From Eunapius fragilis (taxonomy: Eukaryota > Porifera > Demospongiae > Spongillida > Spongillidae): 64,000 nucleotides of DNA. Made by a program: the position numbers and the translations under genes. Numbering within the stretch: the first letter of the stretch is position 1; the number at the start of each line of letters is the position of its first letter. The stretch covers positions 929,001 to 993,000 of the forward strand of contig OY811985.1 in assembly GCA_963681505.1 (NCBI GenBank), in the 5' to 3' direction. The notes under the pieces were generated by a model. It worked only from the letters and a program-made list of their open reading frames with translations, did no database searches and was not told where the DNA came from. Below, one piece after another: positions 7,435 through 59,240 of this stretch.

Positions 7435-7597
7435 ACATTTTTACACAATGCAAGTGTACAAATCAGAGGCTAAAATATTTTTATTGAGCACATATATATG
7501 CAGCCACATGGATGTAGTGTGACCTGCACCATTTCTGACTTGAGGCACAACACACTTCATTCTTAATTTCTGTTATGTCTGATTAGAATTTTAAGTA

Positions 7598-8286
7598 ATG
7601 GAGTACGTGAAGAATTTGAAAGATGGCCTTTTGGAGGCATACGCTCTTGTTAGAGACAGATGCGAAACAGAGCATAAAAGGCAGAAGAGCATCTATGACA
7701 GAAAGGTTCATGGAGAACCATATAGTGAAGGTGATCTCGTTTGGCTGTATACTCCAGCTGTGCCATCTGGACAGTCCCGGAAGCCGCACAGGCACAGGCC
7801 CTGGAAAGGACCCTATAAGGTGGTGGAAAGGCTCGGAGACGCCACCTACAAGCTGCAAGGTACTAGGGGACGGAGACCACAGATCGTCCATTTTGACAGG
7901 TTGAAACCCTGTCCACCTAATGTCAGGTTAGCTAATGAACCTCGTCCGGAGCGTCCTCCAGCAGACAAAGTCGTGCCACCTACCCTCAAACCAGGGGAAC
8001 AATGCGAGTTGCTAGAGGAGGATGAAGATTATGCAGCGCCCATGGCCCCTCCAAACGAACTCCCTGCCGCTGGACCTGTCGATCAACCCGCTCCCCAAAG
8101 GCGATACCCGGATCGAAACAGACGTCAACCTGACCGTTACGGACCATTCATCAAACATTAGAGAGGGAGTAGTGTAAGATAATTAACGCATGCGCGCGGA
8201 AGATCCCGCGCGCACCCTAGATATATTTTTGTGTGGATATGATCAGTTCTGATACGTGTGAGACTGTTGTATACCCGGCTCTTACA
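7598..8286 (+). mobile_element. 5'-truncated Ty3/Gypsy LTR retrotransposon remnant
   Basis: The frame 7598-8161 (187 residues) is the C-terminal end of a Gypsy pol polyprotein: YDRKVHGEPYSEGDLVWLY, HRPWKGPYKVVERLGDATYK and VHFDRLKPC are the classic integrase C-terminal (GPY/F) region. It is followed by a Pro-rich tail. The purine-rich stretch just after the stop (8161-8172) fits a polypurine tract. An LTR follows at 8173-8286. Upstream homology ends abruptly with an in-frame TAA near 7592, so reverse transcriptase, RNase H and most of integrase are missing. The surviving frame is intact, suggesting a fairly recent insertion or deletion. Confidence 0.85.
8173..8286 (+). repeat. 3' LTR of the Gypsy remnant (114 bp)
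   Basis: Starts TGTAAGA directly after the purine tract and ends TCTTACA, a perfect 7-bp terminal inversion with the canonical TG...CA ends. At 114 bp it is unusually short for a Gypsy LTR. No partner LTR lies in the window. Confidence 0.7.
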
Positions 8287-9010: not shown

Positions 9011-10896
9011 TCAAATATCTTTCTTCAGGAGGGTAATGATGGCATCTTCATCATGGCCTTGAAAGAGGGTTTCCGGTTCGAAACTAACCACCTGTATAGC
9101 AAGAGAAGTGTAGTTTATCACATAGTACACACGTGACGATGTGCAGCCTTTATACCTTGTATTTCTTAGCAGATAACAATGTTCCAAGCAAAGCTTCGAA
9201 GAGAGAGTCTGTTCCCGCAATCAAATCGCCGTATGTAAGGGCGGTTTGCCCTTCTGGGTTGGTTTTTCCAAGCCGTCTAATTTCGGAAACTAACTAGCCA
9301 GACATCATATACATTTTTTTTTTTAACGAAAAGCACGCGGCTATAGTAAATTCGTAAACCCACCTTTTTCATCTCGTCGCGTGCCCAGCGGCTGGCATCA
9401 TCGGCCCGCATAGAGGACGTTTTCGTTCCATTCAGTCCCCAGTATTCACTGGTCTGCCATACCAGCGAAGGAGACAGCGTTGCCGAGGAAGAGGAGAGTG
9501 TGGTCGTGTTAGAAAAGGTGTTCGGGAAGGCTGTCGAGAGGGTTGGAGGTTGCAGAGTGGGAGTGGGCGGGCATGGAGGTGCGGGGGGAAGGGCTGATGG
9601 CCTGGGTGGGAGAGGAGGTGGGGGAGGGGATGCAGGGGGGCTAGGAACCCCGACGTGATTCGAATTCTCGGTACAGTCTCCCGCGTTAGGGTTTTTCCAG
9701 AGAACAGACGCGGCGGCATCATTCTGCAGACTCGTAGCCGCGGGCTCCGCTTTTCTCCTGCCGGAATTCCGCAGAATTGGCTTAGGCATGATTGGGGGAG
9801 CGCCGCTATTAGCCGAGAGCTCGCCCAGGCTTCTCTGCTTTACTAGAGAAGGAAGAATGGGCATGCCCAATGCGACAGCTTGAGCATATTCATCTTTTGC
9901 TTTCCCGAGCTGCAAAACGGAAGCAGATCTTTTGGGAGGTGTCGACGCGTCGAGTTCCTTCAACTTTTTCCGGATTTCGGCTTCTTGTTTCTCTAGCTGT
10001 TCTAGGTCCTTTGCATAAGACGTAAATGTTCCTTTCCTGTGGGTAACGGAAGGACCTTCCTTGATGGTTACGCCCTCGGCTTTGTGAGAGTGACCTGCCT
10101 CGAAGTCTTCGACGGAGGAAGAAAACGAAATTTTCTTTGATGGGGACGACCGCCGCTCGTACTGGAGTGTTAAGAATTTCGGGCTCGTGGTCATATGCAG
10201 GCTGTTTTGCAGAGGTATTGCGCTAGCTTCATGGCTAGGTCTTGCCTGTGAGTTGTCCGCTGGCTGTACCTCTCTCAGATCGTCCAAACGAGTAGGGACG
10301 GAACTATATCGCATCGCGCCCTTGTCACTGCCAAATACGGGCAGCTCCGCTACGGTGTCGTCGTCCTCTTGCGAGTCAGTTTGGATCGAATCAGTATAGG
10401 AGTGCCGGTTCGATTGTTTGTCTATCCTTCTGACGGTCACGTCAGCGTTACCGCGCAAAGGCGGCTGCGCGTCCCGCCGGATCTGGAACGAAGCCTTATA
10501 CTGCACTTCTCTTTTCCGCCGAAGTACTCCTGACACGTGCGCAATGCACTCCGTCCAACGCTTGGCTTCCGTTTCTGTAGCTGCGTACACGTAGTAAGTC
10601 CTTTTCAAAATGGAAAACGAGAAACAGCAGTTTGGCGGGATTGTGGTGGGAAACGAGACTTTTACTTTGTCCGCTCCAAGGCAAACGTCGTAGCAAGTTC
10701 CCGCTATGTTGATCTCCCGCAGAACCTTGCAGCGACTCTCGTTCTTGAAGTAAAGCAGCATTCCGTCCGTTGAAAGTTGCCACCAGCGCTTTTTCCACGA
10801 CTTGAAGTTTTTGGTTCGCTTGGTCAGATAGCCGGATACGAGGATTCTCGGCATCCCGCTGGGCAAGGGAGCAGGGCGGTGAGGACGGCTTGCCAT
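9011..10896 (-). CDS. PH-domain plus Costars-domain protein
   Basis: Three exons: 10896-9364, 9293-9156 and 9091-9011, all in phase 0; 583 residues. Residues about 18-125 form a PH domain (VSGYLTKRTKNFKSWKKRWW, then YYVYAATETEAKRWTECI), expected to bind phosphoinositides or proteins at membranes. A central disordered part contains a short coiled coil (LEQLEKQEAEIRKKLKELD) and a Pro-rich block near residues 425-470 that could bind SH3, WW or EVH1 domains. The C-terminal 72 residues are a Costars domain: EIRRLGKTNPEGQTALTYGD, then SLFEALLGTLLSAKKYK and ETLFQGHDEDAIITLLKK, as in ABRACL and the C-terminus of ABRA/STARS, which act on actin and Rho-SRF signalling. The Costars part spans both introns, with exon 1 ending RWARDEMKK. 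The fusion suggests a membrane-recruited actin regulator (inference). Confidence 0.85.
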
Positions 10897-11470
10897 AATG
10901 TTGAGAGGTTACTGCTATAGCTGGCACATATAGATACGCTCCGGTGGGATGCATGGTGTAGCTTTATATATGAGACGTGGTTGTTGCCGCAACGAAGGGA
11001 GTCTCTTGAGAGTTATTGACATGCATGCGTGCATGAGTGGTTTGTATATACGGCAAACTTAAACAAAACAATTAACATTAATCATCGCTGCAGCAAAGCA
11101 CCTTGGCAGACTGAGATGGTTTAATGCTCATCAGTCCTATGGCAATGGTGGGTCAATAACGTCGAACGATGCCGTCCCCGTGCAGTATAATAAAATTGGA
11201 GAGATTATTACACTTCACGACGTGCTGTCAACATTATGCGGTCCAAGCATATTAATAACAAAAAGGAATGTCGTGTGCTCAATTGTATTCCAATGGTTCC
11301 CTTCTGAATTGGGATGAAGGGCTCTTCTGGCAGAACTTTGCAAAATTTAAAGTTGCAACTACGCATACGCGGATCCGCGATCCGCGAATTTGATTTGGTT
11401 CAATTTATACAATTAACTGCGCAAATTGATAACCTTCAATAGTTAGTTACGCGCCACTTGCACTTGTTTC
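10897..11470. other. Divergent intergenic region
   Basis: 574 bp between the start codons of the PH-Costars gene (minus) and the ARM-Tudor-AlbA gene (plus). It should hold both promoters. A short palindrome (GCGGATCCGCGATCCGCGAA) lies near 11370. No coding signal. Confidence 0.45.
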
Positions 11471-13318
11471 ATGGAAAGTGTAAGGAAAGTTTTAGCCGAC
11501 ATAAGCTGCAGTGAGGGAGAAACGAACGCCGCTTTAGAGGCGCTCGCGGAGTTCTACTGCATCGATGTGCACGAGGATGTACGGAAGTTTGTCTTTACTA
11601 GCGGGATCGCCAAACGGCTCGTGGGCATCTTGCGGTCCTCGTCACGACCGTCTTCTCTCACAACGGCAGCGCGGTGTTTGGCGCTAATTGCGTACGACGA
11701 CCAAGAAGCCAAGACTTACTTTGCGCGTCTCGAAGCAATTCCCCTGTTTCTCGCCACGTGCGAACCTCTCTCCAGCATAGCCGCGCTTGTAAACATGGAG
11801 GAAGAACGAATATCGCTCTACGAAGAGGCCCTCGGAGCCATTCGGACTCTCACTTTCCAGAACAGCGACAACCAGCGTTTGTTCCGCGATAATGGCGGCA
11901 CGAAGCGTCTCGTGGCTATTCACAACAGCTGCCTCTCATCAGAGCACGCCACATACCGCGCGAAGGCCGCGGGTAAACTGGCGGCACTGGTACTGGGCAA
12001 CAAAATGATATGCCGAGCTGCGCAGATGCTCAAGGGCAGCCGGCTTCATTCTGATACGGTAAGGGCGTTCGCCGCTCTTTCAAAGCACGTGGCCGCGATA
12101 GGGACCCAGTATCCCGCTTATTTGGTCGACCTTGCGGATGGGGGGCAGCGGTGGGTTGCCGACCAGATGATACAGGCGAACGTCGTGTTGGGGACACCGC
12201 TCGAGTGGCCAGACCAGAGTGCGGTGAAGTGGACGTGTGTGAGAGTGACAGCCGTGGAGGATGGGGGACACCTCTGGTGCCAGTTTCTGACAAAAGAGGT
12301 CCAACCCAGAGTGACAAAGATGGCGGAGAGCCTTCAGAGCATGGTACCGTGACCCTCCCTCACTTCCCTCTCTCTCCCTCCCTCACTTCCTTTCTCCCTC
12401 CCTCACTTCCTCTCTCCCTCCCACACTTCCTCTCTCCCTCCCTCACTTCCTCTCTCCCTCCCTCACTTCCACTCTCCCTCCTCACTTCCCTCTCTCTCCC
12501 TCCCTCACTTCCTCTCTCCCTCCCTCACAGCTACTCCCTCTCCCTCCCTCACTCCCTCCCTCACTCCCTCCCTCACTTCCTCCCTCACTTCCTCTCTCCC
12601 TCCCTCACTCCCTCCCTCCCTCACTTCCTCTCTCCCTCTTACACCTATCTTTTGTTCTGATTTATCGTCTGCCCATTTTCATGATCTATCACCTGTGGAC
12701 TCTTCTTCCTTGCTTCTCAGCCACCACCAGGATTTCAGGGCCCTGACTCCCTCCCTGGTATCACAGTTGGCTCCTCTTACGCCATGTACTATGATCCAGC
12801 AGTCTGTGGCCAACATGGCTGTCTCGCAGAACCTCAGTGGTGCAGAGGGAGATTGCTCCAGGAGGGGGACAAATGGGGGAGGGTGTGTGTGTTAGCTGTG
12901 GACTATGGCATCATGGTACGTCTCCCTGCCTCTCACCTGGGGGCCTTGCCCCAGCCCTGCCTAGGTGTTCCCCCTCAGGTTAGTAGTGATAGGGTTATGG
13001 AGGGAAGAGAAAGGGGAGGAGAAGATGGAGACATGCATCTTATGGTCCAGGGAAGAGGAAGGGGAGGAGAAGATGGAGACATGCATGTTATGGAGGGAAG
13101 AGGAAGGGGAGGAGAAGATGGAGGCATACATGTTATGGAGGGAAGAGGAAGGGGAGGAGAAGATGGAGACATGCATGTTATGGAGGGAAGAGGAAGGGGA
13201 GGAGAAGATGGAGACATACGTGTCTTTTCCTTCTGCAGGCTATACCTTGTAAGCTGATGGGAGTGAAACCACTCCCTCCAAGTTTCCTTATGTTAGAAAA
13301 TATTGCAGGTATCTTTTG

Positions 13319-13354
<36 letters not shown>

Positions 13355-14415
13355 CATCACATTACTTGTGCCTAGGTATTATACACAATATTGCTTCGGA
13401 TTCATCACTGTACATCAATGATATCAGAGTGTTTCAAGGGCTGGGGATGCTGTTAGAGGCAAGTGTTGGATCTGTCACTTTGCACTGCCTCACAGCCATC
13501 CCCCCCCCCCCCCCCCCATGGGGCTCATCTCTCATCCCCCCCCCCTCCCCCATGGCTCATCCTCTCCCCCCTCCATGGGGTTCATCTCTCTTCAGCTGGC
13601 TCAGCTCCCTGATAGGGAGTGTGTTGTACAGGCCCTTGGAGCTCTCATCTGTGTAAGTCAGAGTGCCGATATTGCATCAGAGCTGGGTCGACTTGGAGCT
13701 GTGAAAATAGTTCTTGGTAAGTTGCTTGTGTTCTGTGTGATGAGTGTGTGTATGTGTGTGTGTGTATGTGTGTGTGTGTGTGATTATTTTACATTGATGT
13801 TTGCTATGAACACGTCCACACAATCCTCTCCCAAGGACTGTGTGGTCTTCACAGATCAGACACAGACCTCATGAAGATGGTGATGAACCTTCTGTGTGCA
13901 CTCCTCCTGGGATGTCACATGAACTGTGTGCTGTTTAAGAGGGAGGGAGGAGAAGCGTTTGTGGGAAAGTTGATTCACGAGGTGGAAGGCAGGGATTTGG
14001 AAGTGCTTGCTGCAAGGGTCTTCTATAACCTTTCGATCACCTGGTAGGGGGTATTCCTTTTCTTCTGGTGTGTGTTGCAAATCTGTCTCACACTTCTCCC
14101 TCATTGCATGTACTGTTGAGTGCCAAAGGTCTGGGGAGGAGCCCGGAACAGTGAGTTCTGTCGATACAGTCACATGATCTTCACTTGTCACCGAAGTAGC
14201 TTGCAATGTCCTCACTACCCAATCATCTTCAATGCCCAAGCATACATTGATCATTGAAGCCTATCCCCCCCTTCTCCCCCCCTCCCCCCCAACTTTGTAA
14301 CCTATCACTTGACTTGTACAATGTATCACATGACAAGTGTGTACAGTTTATTGGAGAATTTATCATATAGTGTACAATTTATTGTGTCTGTTTACTTCAG
14401 TGCTATGATTGGGTG

Positions 14416-14473
<58 letters not shown>

Positions 14474-15966
14474 TGTGTGATGTGTCAGAATAAGGAGACT
14501 TCGAGCGGTGAATGGAGAAAGAAGCCTTGCCAAACCAGTCATCCGTGCAAGGCTAAGCGACTCAGAGGGCAGTGATGAAGACCGTCGGAGACTGAGGGAT
14601 GTAGAAGGGGAGGAGGAGGAGGAAGAGGAGGTCCTGTTGCAACACTACCATCAGCATGGCGCTGGTGTGACCCGGAAGGTGTACACACTGTGGAGCACGC
14701 TTCCATTCAGGAGAGACAGCACGCATGAGTTCAAGTGAGTCACCCTTGATGTGTGTGCTGTAATTTGTTAAAATTGTCAGTATGGAGGATAATTTTGACA
14801 AGCAGCCTGCATTGTTGGCAGGGTTAATGCTGTTGCTTTAGGCCTGATTGTTGGATAAGACCATGTTTTGATTATTTCAAAAATTGCCTAAAAATGATGC
14901 ATACATGTACATGCATAGTTATATTAGATCCCTATGTAATGTTCCTTGAGGGGGAGGCTTGGCTGTACCATTGAGGGCAGTATTAGTTTGCACAACCTAC
15001 AAACGTGGCTTCATAGCGTTATAAGTAATATCTTTTTTTTTTTTAAACGTAGACTTCTTGAAACTAAACCATTGAAAATCAAGCTTAGAAGGTAAGATCA
15101 TCAACGCACAAACACACATACACACACATACACACACACACAACAAATGCTATCAAGTGCATTGAAACTGTAGGACCATCTGTGCCTTGATCAACACTGG
15201 CGTTGAGTGCACAATCTACCTTGGGATCTCTAGTGAAGGTGTGGTTTATGGAGTTCAATTGGACCGAGGCATGGTAAGTTTGGGGAGGGGAGGCTAAAGG
15301 CAGTCATCTTTATCTACGAGGGTCCCCTGGTGTACAGCATGCACAAACTAAGTCGCTTGTACACTTTTTTTTTTGCACTTGATACACAGATGGATCATTT
15401 CTGTTTCAAACTGGACGGGCTGATGTCTGACTTTTCACCCAGTATTAAACATGACAGATACACAGTCAGCTCTCTTATGTCCTTCCATGTTTTGCTTTTT
15501 TTTTTTTCATATCTTTTTGTGACATCTTTCAGGTGAACTTTGTACCTGTTGTGAAGAGCCCCCTTGGAACCACTCTTCCCCCTACTGAACTCAAGGCTGC
15601 GTATATCATTGAAGTGAATCTTATGCCATCAATAGTGAGACAGTTCCATACATTCAGGAAACTTGTTGGAAGGTCTTGGTTTGAAAGGTGCAGTGTTCTG
15701 TGTGAAAATGTCATGCAAATATTACTTGTTTTGTTTATTTGCAGGTGTTATTATAGGACTGGATGTAGCGATGTAAAGGTGGGCGTTGCCCTCCCTCACC
15801 CCGCCCACTCCCCACTTTATGCCTCCTCTTTTAGCTGTCCTTTCATAGCCTAAGACAGACAGTGGCTCAGGAAGAGGGGGAACGTTGCCAGCAAGAGTTG
15901 GACGCTCTGGAGAGAAGTGTAGTTAACATGGAACAGGCCCGCCAATTGTCCAATGACAGCATTTGA
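11471..15966 (+). CDS. ARM repeat / extended Tudor / ARM / Schlafen-type AlbA protein
   Basis: Thirteen exons: 11471-12343, 12721-12978, 13239-13308, 13376-13458 (GC donor), 13596-13716, 13836-14043, 14495-14734, 15053-15091, 15174-15273, 15390-15464, 15533-15687, 15745-15778 and 15835-15966; 795 residues in one frame. Residues 1-215 are armadillo-like helical repeats. Residues about 250-400 fit an extended Tudor domain: VRVTAVEDGGHLWCQFL, SSYAMYYDP, WCRGRLL and VLAVDYGIMVRLP, ending PCKLMGVKPLP. The usual Asn of VDYGN is Ile here. ARM-like repeats follow (400-537), then an acidic linker. Residues about 605-752 match the Schlafen AlbA_2 fold: DSTHEFK, ICALINTGVECTIYLGI, GVVYGVQLDRGM, DRYTVNFVPVV and CYYRTGCSDVK. 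The last 40 residues form a coiled coil. Tudor plus Schlafen-like modules occur in piRNA-precursor processing machinery of other animals; a germline small-RNA role is inference. Exon joins at 15464 and 15834 are the least certain. Confidence 0.78.
12344..12660 (+). repeat. CT-rich simple repeat in intron 1
   Basis: Tandem CCCTCCCTCACTTCCTCTCT-like units fill the first intron of the ARM-Tudor-AlbA gene. The open frames across it are low-complexity artefacts. Confidence 0.7.
12993..13220 (+). repeat. About 45-bp minisatellite in intron 2
   Basis: About five copies of a purine-rich unit (GGAAGAGG...GGAGACATGCATGTTAT) lie between exons 2 and 3 of the ARM-Tudor-AlbA gene. Confidence 0.75.
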
Positions 15967-16167: not shown

Positions 16168-18197
16168 TCAGTCAGATTTGTCCAGTGATTGCTCTGGTCT
16201 CAGAAAGTCCTTCTTCACTATGTACCGAATACACTGTAGAATGGCATTCTGTTCCTTGCGGATCTCGGCAGCAAGAAGCTGTGTATTAAATGGAATATGG
16301 TCAACAGTAGTATGCCTAGAGTGACATGCTTACCTTCTCTAGCAATGTTGGCTTTTTAAATGTCTCACGTGTTCTATCCTGCTTACAGAAGAAAGTTGAT
16401 TGGTTATTGTAAAAACTGACTGCAATCACACTGTCCTCACTAGTCAATGTTTGTGATATTCTTACTGTAACAATCAATTTAAATGCAGAGCCAGATTTTA
16501 GGTAACAATAGGTACATTTAGCCAAAGCTCTGATGTTCTGATTTCTTTACTATACAACTTGTCCCCCATTTGACCAACTGTTAAAAATACAGCATTTTTT
16601 AATGCCAAATGGTGGATATTCAAAAGCATAATGGGCTATTCCATTTAATAACTGTACAGGGGTACAGATGACACAGCAATAAATCCCCCTGGATATTACA
16701 AATATAAAAGCTAACCACACCATTAATAGCTATTTTTTCATCCGTACCCCTGTATGGTAATGGAATAGCCCAATCCAGAAAAGACCCTCTTATGATGTCA
16801 TAGATAAAGCTGGCTGTTCAAACTTGTTAGTTTTGACCCCCCCCCCCCCCCCCCACACACAAAAACATGTCTATAATTACAAGCAACCGACCTGCCTCTT
16901 GGACTTTTCCCTAACACGACTATTTTTTTTCCTCCCAGTACAGGTGTGTACTTCCTGCTGCTGCTGAGCACTGCAGCTAGGACCCTGGGCCTCCACCTGA
17001 TGACCACTGTATACGCCACTCTCCCCCTTGTACCCCTCTGTCATGCAGCCATCATTGTCCACAGAGGTGGCAGGAGCGTGCGGCAAAGAGGGGAGAGGCT
17101 TGGTGTCTTCATCCTCGTCAGCAGTGATGTCATCAGTCTGGACGCAGTTGTGGCCACGCTGCACCACTCCTGTGCCTCTTCCTCTCCACTGTCTGCCCCC
17201 CCGCTGGGCGAAAGGTCTCCTGCTCCCACGCCCCCCTCCCCTACGGCCTCCTCTGTCGTTATTGACGATGTGGTTAATGTACCTGTACAAAGGTGTCTCT
17301 GCTACAGAGCCAATGTTCCTCTTCCCAGAGGTGAGCTTTTGCTTCTTGGTCACATTGGCTGCAGTGGGATAGTTTCTGCAGCCATGGGGTACAATTGAGG
17401 TGTGGAGGACAGAGGGGGTAGGTAGAGAGATAGAAGGAAGAGAAGGAATGGAAGCTAAGGGCATGAGTATAGGTCAGGAAAGAAGGGTCACACCTCTTCC
17501 TTGCTTCTTTCCATTTCTGTATATCTTCGGGACTGTCAAATTTAAGTTCGTCAGGAATGTAGTGAGCCTGTAATGGAAACTGCTTCAAAAGAAGTGCAAG
17601 GAAGGGGCCATGGAGGCCACATACCAACAGTGCGTGGTCCTTCAGAGCTTTTCCACTTCCTGTGTATTCGCATACATCACACTAAAACGAACAAGATCGA
17701 GAGTGCCAAAAAATACTAAATACCTAGTCCTTACTTTCTTGTGCGTTGACAAGTGGCTTTGATAAGCTGACGAGGTCTTGTAACCTTTGCCACAGCAGTT
17801 GAAGTCAGCCTCTTGTGTTGAAGAAGGGTTAATACCTTGCGAAACTGAAACCCCTCTGTCATTGGCACCACCGCGCTAGTTGAAATACAACATTTTTTTT
17901 TTAAAAGGCCATTGCTTAAGATTCGAATTGTACCGTTCTCTTATGACCGCTGTTCCAACGACCGCCTCGACTTTGACCTCGGAAAGGTTCGGATTCGCGC
18001 CAGTTTGCTTGAGAAACGTTAGACCATCCTGGCTCAAAGAACGCCGGAGGTGGAAGAGGAGGAGGAGGATGGGGAAGTGGGGGGAATGGCTGTTGGTAAG
18101 GCGAAAACCATACGTTGGGGTTCGGAGGCATTCCATATGCGCAGTTCGTCCAGAATGGCGGAGGCGTAACGTAGGGTCCTGCTGAGTTCCACGCCAT
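16168..18197 (-). CDS. NUFIP1: NUFIP1-like protein (snoRNP assembly / ribophagy)
   Basis: Seven exons: 18197-17934, 17875-17735, 17681-17625, 17582-17494, 17375-16892, 16378-16334 and 16278-16168; 396 residues. The conserved NUFIP signature FDSPEDIQKWKEARKRNYPT crosses the exon 4/5 junction (about residue 170 on). The C-terminus (KKPTLLEKLLAAEIRKEQ, ILQCIRYIVKKDFL) matches the conserved NUFIP1 end. In the C2H2 finger at 113-133 the two Cys are adjacent (NCCGKGYKTSSAYQSHLSTH) where the family has CxxC; a CDVC follows directly. The N-terminus is Pro/aromatic-rich, with a candidate LC3-interacting motif WSNV at residue 58. An Arg/Gly-rich block follows the signature. NUFIP1 works with R2TP, NOP58 and SNU13 in box C/D snoRNP assembly and as a ribophagy receptor in mammals. 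It is head to head with ATG4. Confidence 0.87.
16633..16771. mobile_element. MITE in a NUFIP1 intron
   Basis: 139-bp element with imperfect terminal inverted repeats of about 27-32 bp: GGGCTATTCCATTTAATAAC at the left, and an inverted TGGAATAGCCC end preceded by TACCCCTGTATGG. AT-rich interior, no coding capacity. It sits in the intron between exons 5 and 6. No clear target duplication longer than 2-3 bp. Confidence 0.6.
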
Positions 18198-18302: not shown

Positions 18303-18752
18303 ATGGACCCGGAGCTAATACTCTTTGAGTCACGACCGCAGCTGCTTGTCGCTGAAGGCGAAGCCTGGATTCTGGGTGTCAGATATAGACTTCCAGAAGG
18401 TACTGTTATGCCCTTCTGGAACCTTGTACACAATGGAGTAGTGCATCTCTTTCACCTTGATTTCTGAAGACAATAATGACGTGACAGAGGACATACGCTC
18501 TCGGATATGGTGTTCGTACAGGAAAAACTTTAGGGCTATCGGTTAGCCTTACCGACGGTTGGTGCGTGATGTCGTATTGAATGGACTTTCTACCCCCCCT
18601 CCCCCCCTCCCCCCCCACGTGTTCTAGGCGGCACATCGCTGACAAGTGACAGCGGATGGGGGTGTATGTTACGATGCGGGCAAATGCTGTTGGCGCACAC
18701 ACTCGTCTGCAAACACCTTGGAAGAAGTGGGTCGTTGTTTTTGTTTTCTACA

Positions 18753-18820
<68 letters not shown>

Positions 18821-32656: not shown

Positions 32657-33757
32657 AACTACACTATACTACACTACACTACACTACACTACACTACACT
32701 ACACACAAATGTTCTAAAGAACTACTACCATGCCCATGATGGCCCTGGATATTGATCTAACTAGAACCATGTTCATTCTGCTGTAGATATCAAACAGGGC
32801 AACAGATTTGGAGCGACCTTGGTGGATGGACAGTAAATATGCCAGGCGTGAGAACACGTTTTGGGCCTCCTTCCCCCAATGCCCAAAGGTCTCTACGGCC
32901 AGTAGGATGCACACCCACCCCAGCTCCTGACACCTGGCATCATTGGTGGAATGTTTTCTACATTCTGCAGCATGAGCTGCTGCCCCTGAGGAAGTACTGG
33001 CATCTCTTAAGGTGGCAGGAGTGAGGGGTGAAGTGACCGTTATATCAAAGGCAGCAGGCTTGCCTCTATCCCAACCCTGAACCAACACATCAGCTGGACG
33101 TGTGTTGATATGATCTCCAGATAGGCCATATCCCACTTCAACCCTTACAGGCAGGTGAGCTCGGTAACAGAGTTCGACAAAGGTGTCCCTAAGGTGGTTG
33201 TGACGGGTGACCACATCTCCACCATGCCGACACGAGGTTGCATGGTGGCCAAGAGGGTCAAGTACGGCCCCAGGGCAGAAGGGGCAAGAAGAAGCAGTTG
33301 ATGTGTCGAGGCCTAGCCACCATCTGATAGCCACTTGGCACTCTTCTGAATCTAGGTGCATGTTCAAGCCTACAGAGGAGATGGCAGAGACCCAAGAACT
33401 TGCATGGGGGGCAGATACTGACAACATGCGAGCTTTGTTGGCTGGTGAAGCAGAAGAAACTAGAGCTTGGAACATGTGGGTGTCAAGTTTAAAAGATAGG
33501 ACTTTCTGTTGAGGGGGAGTGTTAAGCACTGCCTCCACAGTAAGAGAATCCTGTGGAGAAACCTGGGCGTTAAAATGGGAAACAGTTTGCTGTAGGTGAA
33601 TGTTGTCTGGGCTCCCTAAGTCTGAGGCTGCTAGTGAAGAGATAATAATAATACACCTTATTAAAAATGACCATGCACAAAACAACCCCCTAAACCTCAA
33701 GCAGGTCCATTGTTGTGTGACCTTGCGAGGCAAGCACGGGCATTGGCTCACTAACAA
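32657..33757 (-). mobile_element. 5'-truncated retroelement fragment (RT-associated endonuclease region)
   Basis: An intact 347-codon frame (33757-32714) has a CCHC-type finger CPFCPGAVLDPLGHHATSC, then RHGGDVVTRHNHLRD, NTRPADVLVQGWDRGKPAAF (continuing DITVTSPL) and CQELGWVCILLAVETFGHWG. This is the C-terminal region of a reverse-transcriptase family repeated in sponge and other marine animal genomes. The finger plus the PAD...DITV pattern resembles the restriction-like endonuclease of R2-type non-LTR elements. No reverse transcriptase lies upstream, so it is 5' truncated. Just 3' of the stop, 32657-32704 is an (AGTGT)n pentanucleotide tract (ACACT on the plus strand), a possible element tail. 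It lies between LAMP-D and LAMP-E. Element class is inference. Confidence 0.62.
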
Positions 33758-48295: not shown

Positions 48296-51200
48296 TGTGT
48301 GTGTGAATGTGTGTGTGTGTGTGTGTGTGTATGTGATGTGTCTCAATTACATTTTGAGCCCTAAAATGGAGTGTATGATACTTACACAGGCATCAGGGGG
48401 CCTATTGAGAAGCTGATGGGTAACTATGATGACGTCCCATCTACATATACTGAGGACAGTACGCCATCTATGTGGGATGACAAGCAATCTGCAATTGATG
48501 AAGAAATGGCTCTCACCCCCTCTGAACTTCCACCTCTCCCCAGCTTTTCCAGGAGGGGTAGCTATTTATTTGGTGCCCACCCATCAGACTGGCCAGTGAC
48601 GGCACACATCTTCCAGAGCTGTTTCCCCTTCCACATCATCTTTGACAAGGACCTCACTGTCACACACATGGGGATCTCCCTGATGAGGCTTTTCCCACAA
48701 GCCATAGCAACAGAGGCACGTATCAGTGAATATTTTGAGCTGACCAGACCTCTTGTTGACCTCACCTATGCTAACATTCGCAGCTATCTCCATAATGTGT
48801 TCATATTAAATATGAAAGAGAGTTACTCGAAGGGTGGCAAAGGAAAGAAGTTACATTTCAGGGGACAAATGGTGCCACTCTCAGTACATGATCCTAACTC
48901 CTCCATCCTCTTCCTCTCCTCTCCACGTGTCAACAGTGTGGAAGAGCTGGAAGTTCAGGGTCTTTACATCAGTGACATACCTACCCACGATGTGACCAGG
49001 GACCTTATCTTGCTCAATAGGCACTTCCGTGTTGAGATGAATATCGCTGAACAGCTGGAGAAGACAAAACATGACCTGGAGATTCAGAAGGCCATTGTAC
49101 AGGAGGAGAAAGCACGTGCGGACAGAGTCCTTCATTCCATGTTGCCTCCATCCATTGCCAGGCAACTGAAGGAGGGGGAAAAGGCCAATGCGACCGAATA
49201 TTCCAGTGTTACCATACTCTTCAGTGACATCAAAGGCTTTACCACTATCTGCAAAGAACGAGCTCCCATGTGTGTGGTTGGAATGCTGAACAACTTGTAC
49301 ACACGGTTCGATAGTCTTATAGAGAAACACAATGTCTATAAGGCGAGTGAGATGTTTGCAATCAGCCATTCTTCTGGCAAACACTTTCACTTCCACGTAC
49401 CTATCTTTCTCCCGTGCAGGTGGAAACGATAGGGGATGCGTACATGGTAGCAGCAGGGTTGCTGGATACATCAGTGAACCATGCAGAGGCTGTGGCCAAC
49501 ATGGCATTTGATATGAGGGATGCTGCCAAGTATGTAGTCAAACCAGCCACTGAGGAGACACTGCAGGTGAGGCACCCACATCTGTGCACACCCATCGTAC
49601 CCCTGATCATATGCCCACCCACGACGTCCATGCACACCCATCGTACCTCTGATCATATGCCCACCCACATCCATGCACACCCATCGTACCCCTGATCATA
49701 TGCCCACCCACGACGTCCATGCACACCCATCGTACCCCTGATCATATGCCCACCCACATCCATGCACACCCATCGTACCCCTGATCATATGCCCACCCAC
49801 ATCCATGCACACCCATCGTACCCCTGATCATATGCCCACCCACATCCATGCACACCCATCGTACCCCTGATCATATGCCCACCCACGACGTCCATGCACA
49901 CCCATCGTACCTCTGATCATATGCCCACCCACATCCATGCACACCCATCGTACCCCTGATCATATGCCCACCCACGACGTCCATGCACACCCATCGTACC
50001 CCTGATCATATGCCCACCCACATCCATGCACACCCATCGTACCCCTGATCATATGCCCACCCACATCCATGCACACCCATCGTACCCCTGATCATATGCC
50101 CACCCACATCCATGCACACCCATCGTACCCCTGATCATATGCCCACCCACATCCATGCACACCCATCGTACCCCTGATCATATGCCCACCCACGACGTCC
50201 ATGCACACCCATCGTACCCCTGATCATATGCCCACCCACATCCATGCACACCCATCGTACCCCTGATCATATGCCCACCCACATCCATGCACACCCATCG
50301 TACCCCTGATCATATGCCCACCCACATCCATGCACACCCATTGTACCCCTGATCATATGCCCACCCACATCCATGCACATCTGCAGATAAGAATTGGCAT
50401 ACATTCAGGACCAGTGGTGGCTGGAGTGGTTGGTTTGAAAATGCCGAGATACTGCCTGTTTGGTGACACGGTCAACACTGCCTCAAGAATGGAGTCCCAT
50501 GGAGAGGCTGATCGGGTACACATCAGTGACGTCACCTACCAGTGAGTGAGCATACGCAGCAGCCCTTGTAACTATTATGTTTGGACATACATATCTCTTA
50601 ACTTATGGGAAGCTAGTTGAAGACCCTTTTTAGACTTTTCTCGAAGCCATATATGGGATTGAGGCAGCGAAAAGGGACCTAGTGCATATTCCTTCAAGTT
50701 TTCAAATTATTTCATATTCTAAGTGTCCTCTACAACTTCTTTCTTACGCACTAGTCTGTTCATCAGTGGCCTGAAATTTTTAATTATGTGTACATTTTAA
50801 TTGCAAATGTCAACTTTGATGCTCCTTCATGGAGTTTTTTAAATATAATATGCACTAGATCTCTTTTCGCTGCCTTGCCCCTACATTTTAATACAAGGAT
50901 TCAAAAATATTTGATTCATTTGCAATGTGGACCAACTCTGTTACATACATGTAATGTTCTGTTTCTGACCATTTCTGGTTTCTTGCAGTGCCCCCTATAT
51001 TCTGTGTATGTGTACATAAAATTAACCTGTTTAGACTGGCAATAACTGCAAGTTGCCATACATTTTAGTTCATCTGTTGAACACTGCGCATACCATAGGC
51101 TAATATGGTGGAGCATTAGCACACTATTCTTAAGCTGCATGGGCTAGATCATATTACCAGGTCAATTAATATGGTATGTGTGTTTGACTAGTCACTAATA

Positions 51201-52317
51201 GCCTCAGTAATAGCCCTTAAATTCCAAGAGCTAGGAATTATTCGGTTTTCTATGATTTTTTAAATGCCAAAACAATTTGAGCACTCAGCACTTGAATGTC
51301 ATTTATATCAAGTGCAATCCTGTATTTAATCTGAAATAGATCCTTGCTGGGAAAGCACCCTCCACCCCCCACCCCCCCCCCACCCCCCTTTCCTCTAGCA
51401 GTAATCTCCTCTTCCTCATCCCATTAGTCCCCTCCCCATCCCTTTCCTCTAACATTAGTCTCATCCTCCCCACCACCCCTTTCCTCTAGCATTAGTACCT
51501 TCCTCCCCATCCCTTTCCTCTAGCATTAGTCCCCTCCTTCCCACCACCCCTTTTCTCTAGCATTAGTCCCCTCCACCCATCCCTTTCCTAGCATTAGTCC
51601 CCTTGTCCGTTAGTCCCCTTTAATGTTCTCTCTGTTGCTTCCAGGATGCTAAGACGAAGAAAGGAGCAATTTCAATTTTTTAGTCGTGGCAAGATACTAG
51701 TGAAAGGTCTGGGAGAAATGGAAACCTATTTCATTGAGCATGCCAACGAATTTGTTGACACTGCAGCCATGTTGACAGAAAGTGACGTAGGGGACTCTCA
51801 GCCAACTTTATCAGTCAGCCAAAATATTGGTCATCGAAATTCATTTACTCAGTATTCCCGACTTGTTCAGTTGGCACCAAGACCATCAATAGACAACACA
51901 ACATCTTTGAGCACAATTTCAGAAAAGGAAAGTGGCCCGCTGGTGGGAATAGATCTTTCGACCTGCTCACACTTATCTGCCATGGACAACATTATTATCG
52001 CAGTGCCCACCTCTGATGAGATAATGAGATACAAGGAGGGGAAGGAGGAGGAAGAGAAGCAGTTGGTCAACAAGGATGCTAGGAGCTTCACCTCCTTGTC
52101 CACATTAGCAGGGGATGTTCCCAAAGGTTACGCCAAACCACTCTCAATAGAGGTACCCTCAGCCACAAAGGTGCCACCAAAGGAGACACTCTCGAAGGGA
52201 GCAACTACAGAGACGTCCTCCTCAAAGGAAATGATGATGTCACAAGTATTTGGCTTCATCCTCTTGTGTTTCCCGTTCACACTGGGATTGCTCCTGACTA
52301 TTTCTGAAGGCTCATAG
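45510..52317 (+). CDS. Soluble guanylate cyclase (H-NOX), copy 1, hydrophobic C-terminal tail
   Basis: Eight exons: 45510-45512 (ATG only), 45573-45646, 45741-45838, 47564-47935, 48390-49342 (GC donor), 49420-49566, 50387-50541 and 51645-52317; 824 residues. Layout: H-NOX haem domain (1-182), HNOBA/PAS region, coiled coil (about 395-445), class III cyclase (about 455-640), tail. The haem ligand His104 lies in [11 protein letters not shown] and the YxSxR porphyrin motif is Tyr132/Ser134/Arg136. The catalytic site is complete in one chain: metal-binding Asp462 (LFSDIKGF) and Asp506 (VETIGDAY), guanine-selecting Glu502 and Cys572 (MPRYCLFGD), transition-state Asn579 and Arg583 (NTASRMES). It should make cGMP from GTP under haem gas control, possibly as a homodimer like Gyc-88E-type or beta2 cyclases. 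The C-terminus is [20 protein letters not shown], a potential membrane anchor. It lacks 12 residues after FDIE that copy 2 has. Confidence 0.88.
49598..50380. repeat. 43-bp minisatellite in cyclase copy 1 intron 6
   Basis: About eighteen copies of CATCCATGCACACCCATCGT followed by ACCCCTGATCATATGCCCACCCA, with ACGACGTCC variants. The same repeat occupies the same intron in copy 2. Confidence 0.93.
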
Positions 52318-53463: not shown

Positions 53464-56400
53464 AATGGTAGGCACCGTTGTGTGCTTTTGCCGTGGAATA
53501 ACTCGCGTCGTCTCTGCCTCTCCTGCTAGTACGGATTTATCTACAACACTCTACGTTCACTAGTGGTGGACAACTATGGCGAGGAAACCTGGAATAACAT
53601 TTGGTAATGGAAAGCAGAACATTGACTAACACCTGGATAGCCTGGTTTAACTTTATACCCCCGTTTCTTTCTTTTACTGTAGTTCAAAGGCAGGTATCAC
53701 CACCGCCGACTACCTCGACCATCACTACTACGACGAGGCCATCCTGTCCGCTGTCGGAGAGGCTGCTTCAGAGCTCCTAGGTTAGCCGGGTGAAACATGC
53801 AACATGTAAAGCAGTTTATGAGCGCAGAGAAGGGGAGGTCCATATCGGCTCAATTAGATTAGCCTGCGATAGGATTTAGTTTACTATCCTGAGGCACTCG
53901 ACCATCTAGAGCAGCTCCCTCTTCTTCTGTTTCATGCGTAGCTACATTTTTAATCACGTCATTTCCTCGATTTTATTGTAACCACAGGAGTACCCTTGGA
54001 GGATATACTGGAAAAGTTTGGTGCCCACTTCTTTGAGACTATAAAGAAGTCAGGCCACAGCAGCCTTCTAAGGACCCTGGGCCACAACCTCTATGGATTC
54101 CTCGTTAACCTGGACTCCCTTCATGACCACCTGTCATTCACCTACACCCAAATGCAGGCACCATCCTTCAGGTGTGAGAAGACCCCAACTGGGCTCCGCC
54201 TCCACTACTATTCGAGCAGGAAGGGACTGGAGGCCATTGCAATAGGGATTGTGAAGGCTGTAGCCAGAAGCTTCTTTGACCTTGAGGTGGACATCAAGAA
54301 ACTGAAGTGTGAGGAGCTGAACGAGAGGCTTTCGTACCACTGTGTTTTTGATATTGAAACAAAGGAGATTTGCCGGAATGAGAAAGGATTGGAACGTAAG
54401 CTATGCAGGAAGGACAGGGTTAAAGCAAGGGAAGTGGAATGTTTATTTATGAGGAGGGAGGAGGGGGGAGGAGGATATGGGTGGGGGGGGGGGAGGTGGG
54501 TGTGGGCATTTTCTGGGTGGCCCAGCTTGGAGTAGCGCTATAACCATCCCCAGACCCTCAGAAGCTCTCTGCTGCTGCTTAAGTCATGTCTAAAGTTGTT
54601 AAACTATAGCGCCCATGTTACGCAGTCATTTCTTAATTGATTGAGAGGGAGGGGCACGTACCTCGAGTGCTGCCCCAATTCCTCCCTTCCCTGCCCCCCC
54701 CCCCCCCCTTTTGACTAGGCAGGGATGGGGAGGAGAAGAGTAGGAGAAGAGAGGAGACTGAGGGAGAGAGGGATGGGGAGGAGGATATAGGCATGATCAC
54801 TGGACAGGAGAGCATGTTTTCAATGCTTTGTTGTCCTTTCTTAGGTCTTGGGGTTAAACAAGATGATCTGGAAGGAGAGATGGAGAGGGTAGGGAGTGAG
54901 ACTGACCTACCCTACCTTCTGGCAGCCCAGTTTCCTGGGTTACGTTCATCTAGCACCGGGCAGATAGTCATCGATGGGGTTAATCTTGATTTCCCCGCTA
55001 CTGTGAGGGAGGAGCCAGAGGTGCCACCAATAGCAGAGGTGCCACCACTACCAATAGTAGTGAACGTTCCACAGCCCGAGAGTGATGCTGTAGAACAGCT
55101 GAGAACAATCCTCAATTCTAGGCTCCGCCCACCATTACGCCTCCCCCCTTCCCTCCTGCCCACACTCCCGGGAATGTCTCGGGGATCATCCAGGAGGGGT
55201 AGCTGTTTGTTTGGTGCCCACCCATCAGACTGGCCAGTGACGGCACACATCTTCCAGAGCTGTTTCCCCTTCCACATCATCTTTGACAAGGACCTCACTG
55301 TCACGCACATGGGGATCTCCCTGATGAGGCTTTTCCCACGAGCCATAGCAACAGAGGCACATATCAATGACTACTTTGAGCTGGCCAGACCTCCTGTTGA
55401 CCTCACCTATGCTAACATTCGCAGCTATCTCCATAATGTGTTCATATTAAATATGAAAGAGAGTTACTCGAAGGGTGGCAAAGGAAAGAAGTTACATTTC
55501 AGGGGACAAATGGTGCCACTCTCAGTACATGATCCTAACTCCTCCATCCTCTTCCTCTCCTCTCCACGTATCAATAGTGTGGAAGAGCTGGAAGTTCAGG
55601 GTCTTTACATCAGTGACATACCTATCCACGATGTGACCAGGGACCTTATCTTGCTCAATAGGCACTTCCGTGTTGAGATGAATATTGCTGAACAGCTGGA
55701 GAAGACAAAACATGACCTGGAGATTCAGAAGGCCATTGTACAGGAGGAGAAAGCACGTGCAGACAGGGTCCTTCATTCCATGTTGCCTCCATCCATTGCC
55801 AGGCAACTGAAGGAGGGGGAAAAGGCCAATGCGACCGAATATTCCAGCGTTACCATACTCTTCAGTGACATCAAAGGCTTTACCACTATCTGCAGTGAGT
55901 GTGCTCCCATGTGTGTGGTTGGAATGCTGAACAACTTGTACACACGGTTCGATAGTCTTATAGAGAAACACAATGTCTATAAGGCGAGTGAGATGTTTGC
56001 AATCAGCCATTCTCCTGGCAAACACTTTTACTTCCACGTACCTATCTTTCTCCCATGCAGGTGGAAACGATAGGGGATGCGTACATGGTAGCAGCAGGGT
56101 TGCTGGATACATCAGTGAACCATGCAGAGGCTGTGGCCAACATGGCATTTGATATGAGGGATGCTGCCAAGTATGTAGTCAAACCAGCCACTGAGGAGAC
56201 ACTGCAGGTGAGGCACCTGTAGTATAAGGGTGGCTGAGGTTGGCTATCTGTAGTAAGGAATGACTGAGGTTAGCCATCTGTGGTAACCATATGTAGTATG
56301 AGGGGTGACTGAGGTTAGCCACCTGTGGTATAAGGGATGACTGAGGTTAGCCATCACCTTCTGTATAAATTTGGCAAACAACAGCTGCCACTTTAAAGAC

Positions 56401-57513
56401 CAGGTCCATGAAATTTGATACCAAAAATTGCACACCATGCTATTACAAAAGTAGTCTCACTTTTTAATTAATGTGCATTGATTGCTGGTTCTAGATCTGT
56501 ATTCAAATTTCCTTATAAGCGATCAGTGAGTTGTCCTATAGATGCTGACAAACACAATGACCTCATACACAAACTGTGCTCTTTTTATTTTTTTAATTTT
56601 TTTTAGCAATGCTTATAAGTCACTTACTTTTGTCCTCAAAAAAGGTTATTCCTTGGACCATAGAGCACATAGATGAACTTTTTAGCCTTTCTAGTGAGGA
56701 AAATGTGTTGACTATCGCCACGCCTCAAGCTATTAACAACCGGATGTAATGGGCATATAGAATACACTTGGTTATTGTGTCTTGACAAAGGTAAAACATA
56801 TTAGAGGCTAAATTTTGCTTCTATGTACTGATTTGCCCTATGCGATAATATAGTTTGCTGAAAGCTGCGTGAAAGTAAGCAGGAGGGAGTATTCTGTGCG
56901 TATTACAAGTGTTTAAAGTGCAAGAAGTGTCCTAGAAAACAGAAGGGTCTCTATGATGTCTGCTTTCTCTGATGGCTACTGACATGTTGAGAGGTCAAGG
57001 GTTGTATATTGAGCAACCTGATATTAGTTACTGGCAATTATGTCTGACCTCACAAATGTAGAAACAACGTGTATCTTCATCCAAAGGATCATTTAATCAT
57101 ACACAATGCACAAACCCCACTAGGAACAACTTTTTGTTTGAGGCAGTTTGCACTTTTTTTTGTGTTGATTTTGGTATCAAAATTTCATGGACCGTGTGTT
57201 AAACTAGCAAGGGTGTACTCTTATGTATTGAAGGGAAGCTTCAGTTAGGGTGTCACGAAAAACCCTGAACTAAAACTGTCAGCTTTGAGAATGTGGTATC
57301 ACAAGAACAGTAGGCCTATATGTGATAATGTACTACACCAGATGAGACCTTACCCTGTGCACATGCACAGATGCACTATGATACATTAAAGAAGTACAGC
57401 TGCAATGCTCCTGAATAAAAACCATGAAAAAAACATTATCTTCGACATAAGGTAGTAGTGTGGTGTAAAAAGGAAGGAAACAAGCAATGAATGAAACAAA
57501 CCTATATTGAGCA

Positions 57514-57561
<48 letters not shown>

Positions 57562-59240
57562 GGACATTATAGTACAGATCTATATTTAGCACATTGTACA
57601 CATACAATGTGCTAAATATAGACTAAATATAGGTCTGTTTCAATTAACACTTGTTTCCTACCATTTTACACCACTATTGCTTTTATTTACTTGTTTGATT
57701 GATCTGTGAGAACTGTTGTCAATGGGTGCTGACATGTACCACCCACGTCCATGCACACCAATTGTACCCCTGATCATATGCCCACCCACATCCATGCACA
57801 CCCATCGTACCCCTGATCATATGCCCACCCACATCCATGCACACCCATCGTACCCCTGATCATATGCCCACCCACGTCCATGCACACCCATCGTACCCCT
57901 GATCATATGCCCACCCACGTCCATGCACACCCATCGTACCCCTGATCATATGCCCACCCACATCCATGCACACCCATCGTACCCCTGATCATATGCCCAC
58001 CCACGTCCATGCACACCCATCGTACCCCTGATCATATGCCCACCCACGTCCATGCACACCCATCATACCCCTGATAATATGCCCACCCACGTCCATGCAC
58101 ACCCATCGTACCCCTGATCATATGCCCACCCACATCCATGCACACCCATCGTACCCCTGATCATATGCCCACCCACATCCATGCACATCCGCAGATAAGA
58201 ATTGGCATACATTCAGGACCGGTGGTGGCTGGAGTGGTTGGTTTGAAGATGCCAAGATACTGCCTGTTTGGTGACACGGTCAACACTGCCTCAAGGATGG
58301 AGTCCCATGGAGAGGCTGATCGGGTACACATCAGTGACATCACCTACCAGTGAGTAATATATAAAAGCTGGGGATCATGTTTCAGATGTACTGACGGGGT
58401 GGGGCCTTATAGGGGTGTTACATCCCATACTCCATGTTGAAAGAATGCCTTGTGGGTGGGAGGAGATAAAACAGTATGTTCAGTACATTATGTAATCATC
58501 ACTAATCCAATTATCAAATCCTGGTATGCCCCCCCCCCCCCACCCCCATATGCTATTTACAACACAATCCTTCCTGTAGAGATCATTTTGTCTTCTTTCT
58601 TCCCTCCAGAATGCTAAGAAAGAAGCCATTCGTATTTTTCAGTCGTGGCAAGATTGAAGTGAAAGGTCTGGGGCTGAGGGAAACCTACTTCATAGAACCT
58701 GCCAATGGGTTTGATGGCATTAAAACAATAATGGTTGAAAGCGCTGATGGAACTTTGCTACCGAGCTTACCTGTTGATCATTCAATGGACTTCATCCGCA
58801 CCTGTTCTTTTGTTAGGTACAACCAGATTGTTCAGATGAAGCCAAGCGCGTCAATTGTTTCACACAAGGCAGTATATTCAGGCAACATTCCTTCAGATGG
58901 GCACGTTAGTCCTCCAGATGGGCACGTTAGTCCTCCAGATGGGCACGTTAGTCCTCTGGGCTCTCAATCTGCCACACTCCTGAGAAATGCTCCAGTATCA
59001 TCACAAGTGACTACCGAAGAGGACAACATTATCATCAGGGTACCCACAACAGATGAACTGAAGAGACGTGAGGAGCAATGGGTTAATAAGGGTGCTCCTT
59101 TGTCCACATCAGAAGCAGCAGGGGATATCCTCAGTGATGTAAATCCAGAGCAGATACCCCCAAATAAGATGGGAGAGATGGAAAGTAACTCTGAAGTGAA
59201 AGTGAAGCGAAGGAGGTCTAAAAAATGTCTCATCACTTGA
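53464..59240 (+). CDS. Soluble guanylate cyclase (H-NOX), copy 2, polybasic CAAX tail
   Basis: Eight exons: 53464-53466 (ATG only), 53530-53603, 53683-53780, 53988-54395, 54845-55983 (GC donor), 56061-56207, 58195-58349 and 58610-59240; 884 residues. Exon structure and phases equal copy 1. The haem His (SLHDHL), YxSxR and all six catalytic positions are kept (Asp536, Glu576, Asp580, Cys646, Asn653, Arg657). It differs by a 12-residue extension after FDIE ([12 protein letters not shown]), a longer acidic/Pro linker ([20 protein letters not shown] onward) before the HNOBA region, three tandem DGHVSPP units in the C-terminal tail (about 58896-58955), and its end: [18 protein letters not shown] after a polybasic run is a CAAX-type prenylation signal, as known for vertebrate sGC beta2. 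Membrane association by lipid is inferred. Confidence 0.88.
57435..57670. mobile_element. Degenerate foldback/MITE copy with internal (GT)n
   Basis: GTGGTGTAAAAAGGAAGG...AACAAGCAATGAATGAAACAAACCTATA on the left is matched in inverted form by TATAGGTCTGTTTCAATTAACACTTGTTTCCTACC...TTTTACACCAC on the right, with ATGTGCTAAATATAG subterminal sequence and a (GT)n expansion in the middle. Same family as 60142-60319. It lies in intron 6 of cyclase copy 2. Confidence 0.65.
57735..58192. repeat. 43-bp minisatellite in cyclase copy 2 intron 6
   Basis: About ten copies of the unit found in copy 1, ending just before the acceptor of exon 7. Unit variants differ slightly (ACGTCC more common). Confidence 0.93.

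Follow-up and report, generated by a model that had tools for sequence, protein, structure and literature searches.

Can a single animal protein carry both an extended Tudor domain and a Schlafen domain, and what could such a protein do? The question is raised by one gene in a stretch of 64,000 nucleotides from the sponge Eunapius fragilis, positions 929001-993000 of contig C15 (the analysed genome comprises 219 Mb in 24 contigs); this whole stretch is called the window, and positions are given in it unless another contig is named. The gene, built from the sequence and its open frames and referred to here as the Tudor-Schlafen gene, lies on the plus strand at 11471-15966, with its ATG at 11471 and its stop codon ending at 15966. 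Computation yields a gene model with Tudor and Schlafen matches, losses of signature residues in both domains, and a relative of the Schlafen domain on contig C14 in which the Schlafen residues are intact.

The model has 13 exons and 795 codons with no internal stop, so that the single continuous spliced frame described in the first-pass annotation is indeed open, with 795 amino acids. A version with 12 exons encodes 770 amino acids, the difference being exon 15390-15464. The donor of exon 4 is GC, and the remaining introns are GT-AG. The exons and the evidence for each are the following:

11471..12343, plus strand: exon 1, with the start codon; residues 1 to about 211 are helical and armadillo-like, and the extended Tudor flank starts near the exon end (open frame 11447-12352, codon use, weak ARM-type Pfam match, low-confidence model with helices followed by strands)
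12721..12978, plus strand: exon 2, Tudor core with WCRGRLL and VLAVDYGI (Pfam TUDOR 1.6e-10, residues 255-384)
13239..13308, plus strand: exon 3, end of the extended Tudor domain and onset of the second helical region (spliced frame, Pfam)
13376..13458, plus strand: exon 4, with the GC donor; second armadillo-like region (ARM_ARMC5 stretch 413-503, below cut-off)
13596..13716, plus strand: exon 5, second armadillo-like region (spliced frame, Pfam)
13836..14043, plus strand: exon 6, second armadillo-like region (spliced frame, Pfam; the homology-free parse with standard penalty picks both splice sites too)
14495..14734, plus strand: exon 7, acidic linker, then Schlafen onset with RRDSTHEFK; weakest acceptor of the model (frame, codon use, splice scores)
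15053..15091, plus strand: exon 8, Schlafen domain (spliced frame, Pfam)
15174..15273, plus strand: exon 9, Schlafen domain with INTGVECTIYLGISSEG; 100 nucleotides, equal in length and phase to the exon of the C14 relative (spliced frame, C14 comparison)
15390..15464, plus strand: exon 10, with MDHFCFKLDGLMSDFSPSIKHDRYT; 75 nucleotides as in C14, weak donor (added after the C14 relative was seen, its ends chosen with C14 in view)
15533..15687, plus strand: exon 11, Schlafen domain with VNFVPV and IIEVNLMP (spliced frame, alignment)
15745..15778, plus strand: exon 12, Schlafen end with RCYYRTG; 34 nucleotides, frame not favoured by codon use (spliced frame, alignment)
15835..15966, plus strand: exon 13, charged C-terminal tail and stop codon (spliced frame, codon use, parse)

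With codon use calibrated on two giant Tudor genes of this genome, each a single exon, the modelled frame is the best one in 12 of the 13 exons (all except the short exon 12), the values being small for exons 6, 10 and 11. Exon 10 does not raise the Schlafen Pfam score, which is 33.0 bits without it and 32.4 bits with it.

Both domains exceed the cut-offs of their Pfam families, extended (TDRD-type) Tudor and Schlafen AlbA_2. In the 12-exon protein TUDOR is matched at residues 255-384, encoded by exons 1-3, over profile positions 7-120 of 121 (E 1.6e-10; 41.5 bits, cut-off 23), and SLFN_AlbA_2 over profile positions 2-117 of 118 (E 2.1e-6; 28.7 bits, cut-off 25.3); the latter match spans exons 7, 8, 9, 11 and 12 of the 13-exon model and reaches an E-value of about 1e-7, above the cut-off, when the Schlafen domain is scanned alone. 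Without splicing, the frames of this stretch match TUDOR at 2.1e-4 (21.8 bits, below the cut-off), and SLFN is not matched up to E 0.1. The joins inside the two domains are thus supported, because splicing creates matches that are absent or weaker in the unspliced frames. Pfam finds one AlbA_2 stretch, which differs from the two-lobe mammalian layout and points to a single Schlafen fold, as in the subunits of the worm nuclease PUCH.

The four motifs quoted in the first-pass annotation are present in the order given there, and its domain content and order stand for the Tudor and Schlafen parts; the armadillo-like repeats stay below Pfam cut-offs. ARM_ARMC5 is matched by the whole protein with E 1.8e-6, yet with 28 bits against a cut-off of 79.9, and Atx10homo_assoc by the 12-exon protein with E 0.0048; the two helical parts scanned separately give at best 6.8e-4 and 6.1e-4, both below cut-off. 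Single-sequence AlphaFold models of exon 1 and exon 2 (mean pLDDT 38.3 and 37.0) are too poor for use. A sequence search of solved structures returned nothing significant for the whole protein (best 0.18, a TDRD1 Tudor domain) or for the Schlafen part (best 0.38, an unrelated enzyme). At E 1 or better, the search of the whole genome with the protein gave 15 matches, ten from the gene itself and five Tudor stretches elsewhere (E 0.003 to 0.58), and no second copy of the architecture. A literature search of titles and abstracts turned up no protein with the order Tudor, armadillo, Schlafen, and at its partial coverage this is weak evidence of absence.

Signature residues and Schlafen relatives

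In the alignment columns which we take to form the Tudor cage, the Tudor-Schlafen protein has C, A, Y and I, so that one of four positions is kept; the position of the first cage aromatic did not align. The replacement of the Asn that would contact symmetric dimethyl-arginine by Ile, noticed at first pass, is confirmed by the alignment. Dimethyl-arginine is bound by an aromatic cage together with this Asn (PMC10711660; statements on cited papers refer here and below to the excerpts available), a combination that the protein appears to lack. All four positions (three aromatics and Asn) are kept in 18 of 26 other aligned Tudor domains of the genome, and the cage is broken in eight, three of which keep one position only, like the Tudor-Schlafen protein. 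The 26 aligned domains, 22 from two giant genes and four others, were taken from 35 Tudor matches after exclusion of nine partial or weaker ones; within the aligned stretch, three units on contig C16 appear identical, as do two on C9, and the cage counts are therefore not independent. The two giant multi-Tudor genes are single-exon loci with open frames of 3753 codons (L036, C9) and 2549 codons (L037, C16).

Schlafen residues were mapped by counting: Glu 237 and 242 of the SLFN11 chain were taken as E209 and E214, and the resulting offset of 28 assigns the Lys of EFK to K216 and the second Asp to D252. The equivalents of E209, E214, K216 and D252 are R, E, K and S in the Tudor-Schlafen protein (RDSTHEFK, GISSE) and E, E, K and D in the Schlafen-domain proteins encoded on C14 (EDETHEFK, GVTDD) and on C2 (ESRTVEYK, GVQDN), the C2 domain aligning weakly with SLFN11 across PESQLVEFK and GVDDK (E 0.11). 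The Gly-Gly of the NTGxGG loop is also changed in the Tudor-Schlafen copy. In SLFN11 the residues E209, E214 and K216 are essential, since E209A, E214A and K216A abolish activity, and D252A slightly raises it (PMC9482658); in SLFN13 both Glu mutants, including E205A, are wholly inactive and mutation of the Asp reduces activity (PMC5862951). The essential trio thus reads R, E, K here. Neither classical activity is expected, because Arg and Ser stand at the E209 and D252 equivalents and little of the aromatic cage remains, and the protein is probably neither a nuclease by itself nor a reader of methylated arginine. The first-pass annotation was right that the acidic residues of the AlbA part are partly lost (E209 and D252 replaced, E214 kept); its suggestion that one polypeptide holds both working parts of a small-RNA factory is not supported as it stands, given these losses and that of the cage.

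The closest relative found of the Schlafen domain is a short gene on C14 (5744873 to about 5748058), whose Schlafen domain of about 168 residues matches Pfam with 8.7e-11. The two domains share 29% identity over 163 columns (blastp E 5.7e-19), with an alignment score 29 standard deviations above 1000 shuffles. The two genes share the position and phase of three introns. The exon that lies between the first and the second of these, found prior to the comparison, has 100 nucleotides in both; the agreement of the 75-nucleotide exon was partly chosen by the analyst through the ends of exon 10. The C14 and C2 proteins are also similar (blastp E 2.6e-9), and the similarity of the Tudor-Schlafen domain to C2 is weak (blastp E 0.001; score 50 versus 54 for the best of 1000 shuffles). 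An intron that follows VQDNG in the C2 gene has no counterpart in the other two. We read the Tudor-Schlafen and C14 Schlafen genes as putative duplicates, one with a damaged and one with an intact active site. The C2 gene (L010, L013 and L014; about 6498 kb) matches Pfam with 4.4e-14 and has E, E, K and D intact.

Upstream of the C14 and C2 genes no Pfam match with E<=0.1 was found in plus-strand frames of about 8 and about 10 kb, respectively, a scan that would miss a split domain because the same method finds the Tudor exon but not the Schlafen exons of the Tudor-Schlafen gene. A six-frame search with PF04326 found C14 and C2 and missed the domain of the Tudor-Schlafen gene itself, and a search of the genome with the C14 protein found its own locus only. 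Schlafen gene counts are therefore lower bounds, because the searches missed the Tudor-Schlafen domain and other relatives.

Possible roles of the protein

In the known Schlafen nucleases, folds that have an active site go together with folds that have none. SLFN13 forms a pseudo-dimer of two lobes, only one of which carries the active site (PMC5862951), and in worm PUCH single-Schlafen proteins assemble, of which TOFU-2 has catalytic residues and TOFU-1 has none (PMC10567574). The combination thus occurs within one chain and between chains, and an intact C14 protein with a damaged scaffold copy would fit that scheme. Our tentative reading, to which we give somewhat less than an even chance, is that the Tudor-Schlafen protein is a scaffold with a pseudo-nuclease Schlafen lobe that pairs with a catalytic Schlafen partner. 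Its helical parts and Tudor surface would hold client proteins via contacts independent of methylated arginine; its Schlafen domain would be the inactive lobe of a composite RNA nuclease, whose active lobe would come from another Schlafen protein; the natural candidate for this partner is the C14 relative. By analogy, the role might resemble that of the non-catalytic part of PUCH. Both the pairing with C14 and RNA as the substrate are inferred.

A close parallel is PUCH (TOFU-1, TOFU-2, SLFL-3/4) with the PETISCO subunit TOFU-6, where the proteins also have single Schlafen folds, one of them non-catalytic, and where an extended Tudor domain is used off its cage: TOFU-1 contacts the nuclease-like face of a Tudor domain (PMC10567574). 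As the first-pass annotation had stated, the Schlafen and Tudor parts belong to separate proteins in C. elegans (PUCH and PETISCO; PMC10567574), an animal that lacks Zucchini, whereas here a single chain holds both, along with armadillo-like regions, and the animal has a PLD6 protein. SLFN11 and SLFN13 share the AlbA_2 Pfam family and the EFK motif with the Tudor-Schlafen protein, but have two lobes instead of the one Schlafen stretch found here, where the E209 and D252 equivalents are changed and Tudor and helical parts are added. SLFNL1 of human and mouse likewise has a single C-terminal Schlafen fold, and is set apart by description only, no Tudor domain being mentioned for it in the excerpt (PMC10567574). 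The silkworm Tudor scaffold Vreteno indicates that a Tudor domain can bind a client via an off-cage pocket; unlike the present protein, its TD1 has an aromatic cage, and no Schlafen domain is mentioned in the part of the source available (PMC10711660). In choanoflagellate and coral eTudor-DCD and eTudor-YTH proteins an extended Tudor domain is fused to an RNA-related module, which is a modified-base reader there and a Schlafen domain here; given these fusions, the Tudor-Schlafen fusion would be unusual in its partner, not in kind (PMC7641849). Bacterial Schlafen and Tudor parts are treated as different components (PMC12839542).

Several observations weigh against the scaffold with a catalytic partner. 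Since SLFN11 activity is not lowered by D252A, the loss of D252 says little and the argument rests on E209. A broken Tudor cage is not unusual in this genome and hence, as far as the alignment goes, not special to this protein. Introns 7|8 and 11|12 are missing from C14, which in turn has one intron that the Tudor-Schlafen gene lacks. The C14 protein could instead pair with itself or with the C2 protein. Finally, C11 contains a frame with matches of 1e-33 and 3.9e-23 to PLD6/Zucchini chains of solved structure. C. elegans, without Zucchini, uses PUCH (PMC10567574); with a Zucchini/PLD6 protein present, a Schlafen enzyme is not required for the piRNA step.

A plain scaffold or RNA-binding protein, whose Schlafen domain binds RNA or protein only and has no nuclease partner, is a serious contender that we nevertheless hold to be doubtful. 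The change of two of the four active-site positions and of the NTGxGG Gly-Gly, and the broken Tudor cage, would be expected of it as well, but a relative in the same genome has intact residues and a partly equal exon structure, and the mixture of active and inactive Schlafen folds in the known nucleases favours a partner.

The genome encodes PIWI beside the PLD6 protein. Matches to the PIWI domain occur on C3, on C7 and at three sites on C21, and a 39-residue stretch on C21 matches PIWI chains at 3.1e-19 versus Argonaute chains at 1.7e-4. The three PIWI-like loci of C21 are clustered at 1.39-1.52 Mb (L025-L027, L029, L030), one of them with stops in the matched stretches. Any tie of the Tudor-Schlafen gene to this pathway or to small RNAs is likewise inferred. 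We consider it rather unlikely that a composite Schlafen ribonuclease of the PUCH type, formed by a catalytic one-domain protein on a Tudor-armadillo chassis with an inactive lobe, exists in this animal in addition to PIWI and Zucchini. If it were so, Schlafen nucleases would be an old part of the animal small-RNA or RNA-surveillance machinery and not a nematode invention. Were the pairing real, Schlafen-based RNA processing in the company of Tudor scaffolds would gain a second origin that can be tested, or an older root, and the two would be united in a single chain. Independently of any pairing, intact and damaged Schlafen relatives coexist in one animal genome.

Integrity of the gene

The reading of a scaffold with an inactive lobe needs the Tudor and Schlafen halves to belong to one gene, and the junction that joins them, exon 6|7, is the weakest of the model. 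By untrained splice matrices, the exon 7 acceptor at 14495 scores -6.3 bits, and the donors at 12344 and 15465 score -1.9 and -2.5 bits; an alternative CAG acceptor (exon start 14489) combined with donor 14044 leads to a stop codon. These scores count against one gene. The poor acceptor of exon 7 speaks for two adjacent genes, the first encoding an ARM-Tudor-ARM protein whose end is the TAG immediately behind exon 6 and the second a Schlafen protein, as does the reading frame of exon 6 (13784-14047), which stops directly past the donor. However, exon 7 has no in-frame ATG, the sole ATG of intron 6 in the exon 7 frame (14232) runs into a stop, and no polyadenylation hexamer (AATAAA or ATTAAA) occurs between 11401 and 15444. 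The one-gene parse scores 109.9 bits versus 94.9 bits for the best of six forced two-gene parses, 15 bits worse, and the latter required a first exon of 7 bases at 14330. Because of the frame, the missing start in exon 7, the missing hexamer and the parse score, we join exons 6 and 7 despite the poor acceptor, and regard two genes as improbable.

A homology-free gene finder, a crude parse using the same untrained matrices, gave a single gene with its start at 11471 at all four intron penalties; the stop fell at 15966 with two of the penalties and at 15853 with the remaining two. With the standard penalty, nine of its 18 splice sites are among the 24 of the model; this parse omits exons 4, 8, 10 and 12 and nearly all of exon 3, ends inside the Tudor exon and takes in some low-complexity stretches. 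At penalty 12 exon 7 is joined directly to 15745, and at penalty 15 exon 6 is skipped too.

That the Schlafen domain is still an active ribonuclease, for example with the neighbouring Asp (DSTHEFK) replacing the lost Glu, is very unlikely: the E214 and K216 equivalents are retained and an Asp stands one residue away from the lost Glu, but C14 has that Asp too, beside an intact Glu, unlike a replacement, and the E209A and E205A results in SLFN11 (PMC9482658) and SLFN13 (PMC5862951) argue for loss of activity. A decaying gene or pseudogene, as the loss of signature residues in two domains, the GC donor and some weak splice sites might suggest, is still harder to credit with a frame open across all 13 exons and in-frame codon use in 12 of the 13.

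Other features of the window

A gene for a PH-domain protein (9277-10908, minus strand; Pfam PH 5.4e-14) lies head to head with the Tudor-Schlafen gene, the two start codons being about 0.57 kb apart, and a shared promoter is possible. On the plus strand, a retroelement integrase C-terminal match (2.9e-14) was found at 7595-8161 and an exon of an ATG4-type peptidase C54 (4.7e-14) at 18570-18755. On the minus strand, a NUFIP1-like stretch (3.1e-4, below cut-off) lies at 17274-17681, and an open frame of 347 codons at 32714-33757, which may resemble a retroelement, matches no Pfam family at 0.001. Elsewhere in the genome, C6 and C12 carry matches to Wnt, a family of animals, in keeping with an animal genome; the C-terminal half is covered by three of these matches.

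Two adjacent plus-strand genes, at about 48365-52317 and 53954-59240, are alike by eye; HNOB, HNOBA and guanylate cyclase are matched in the second one. The pair is likely a tandem duplication of a gene of the soluble guanylate cyclase type.

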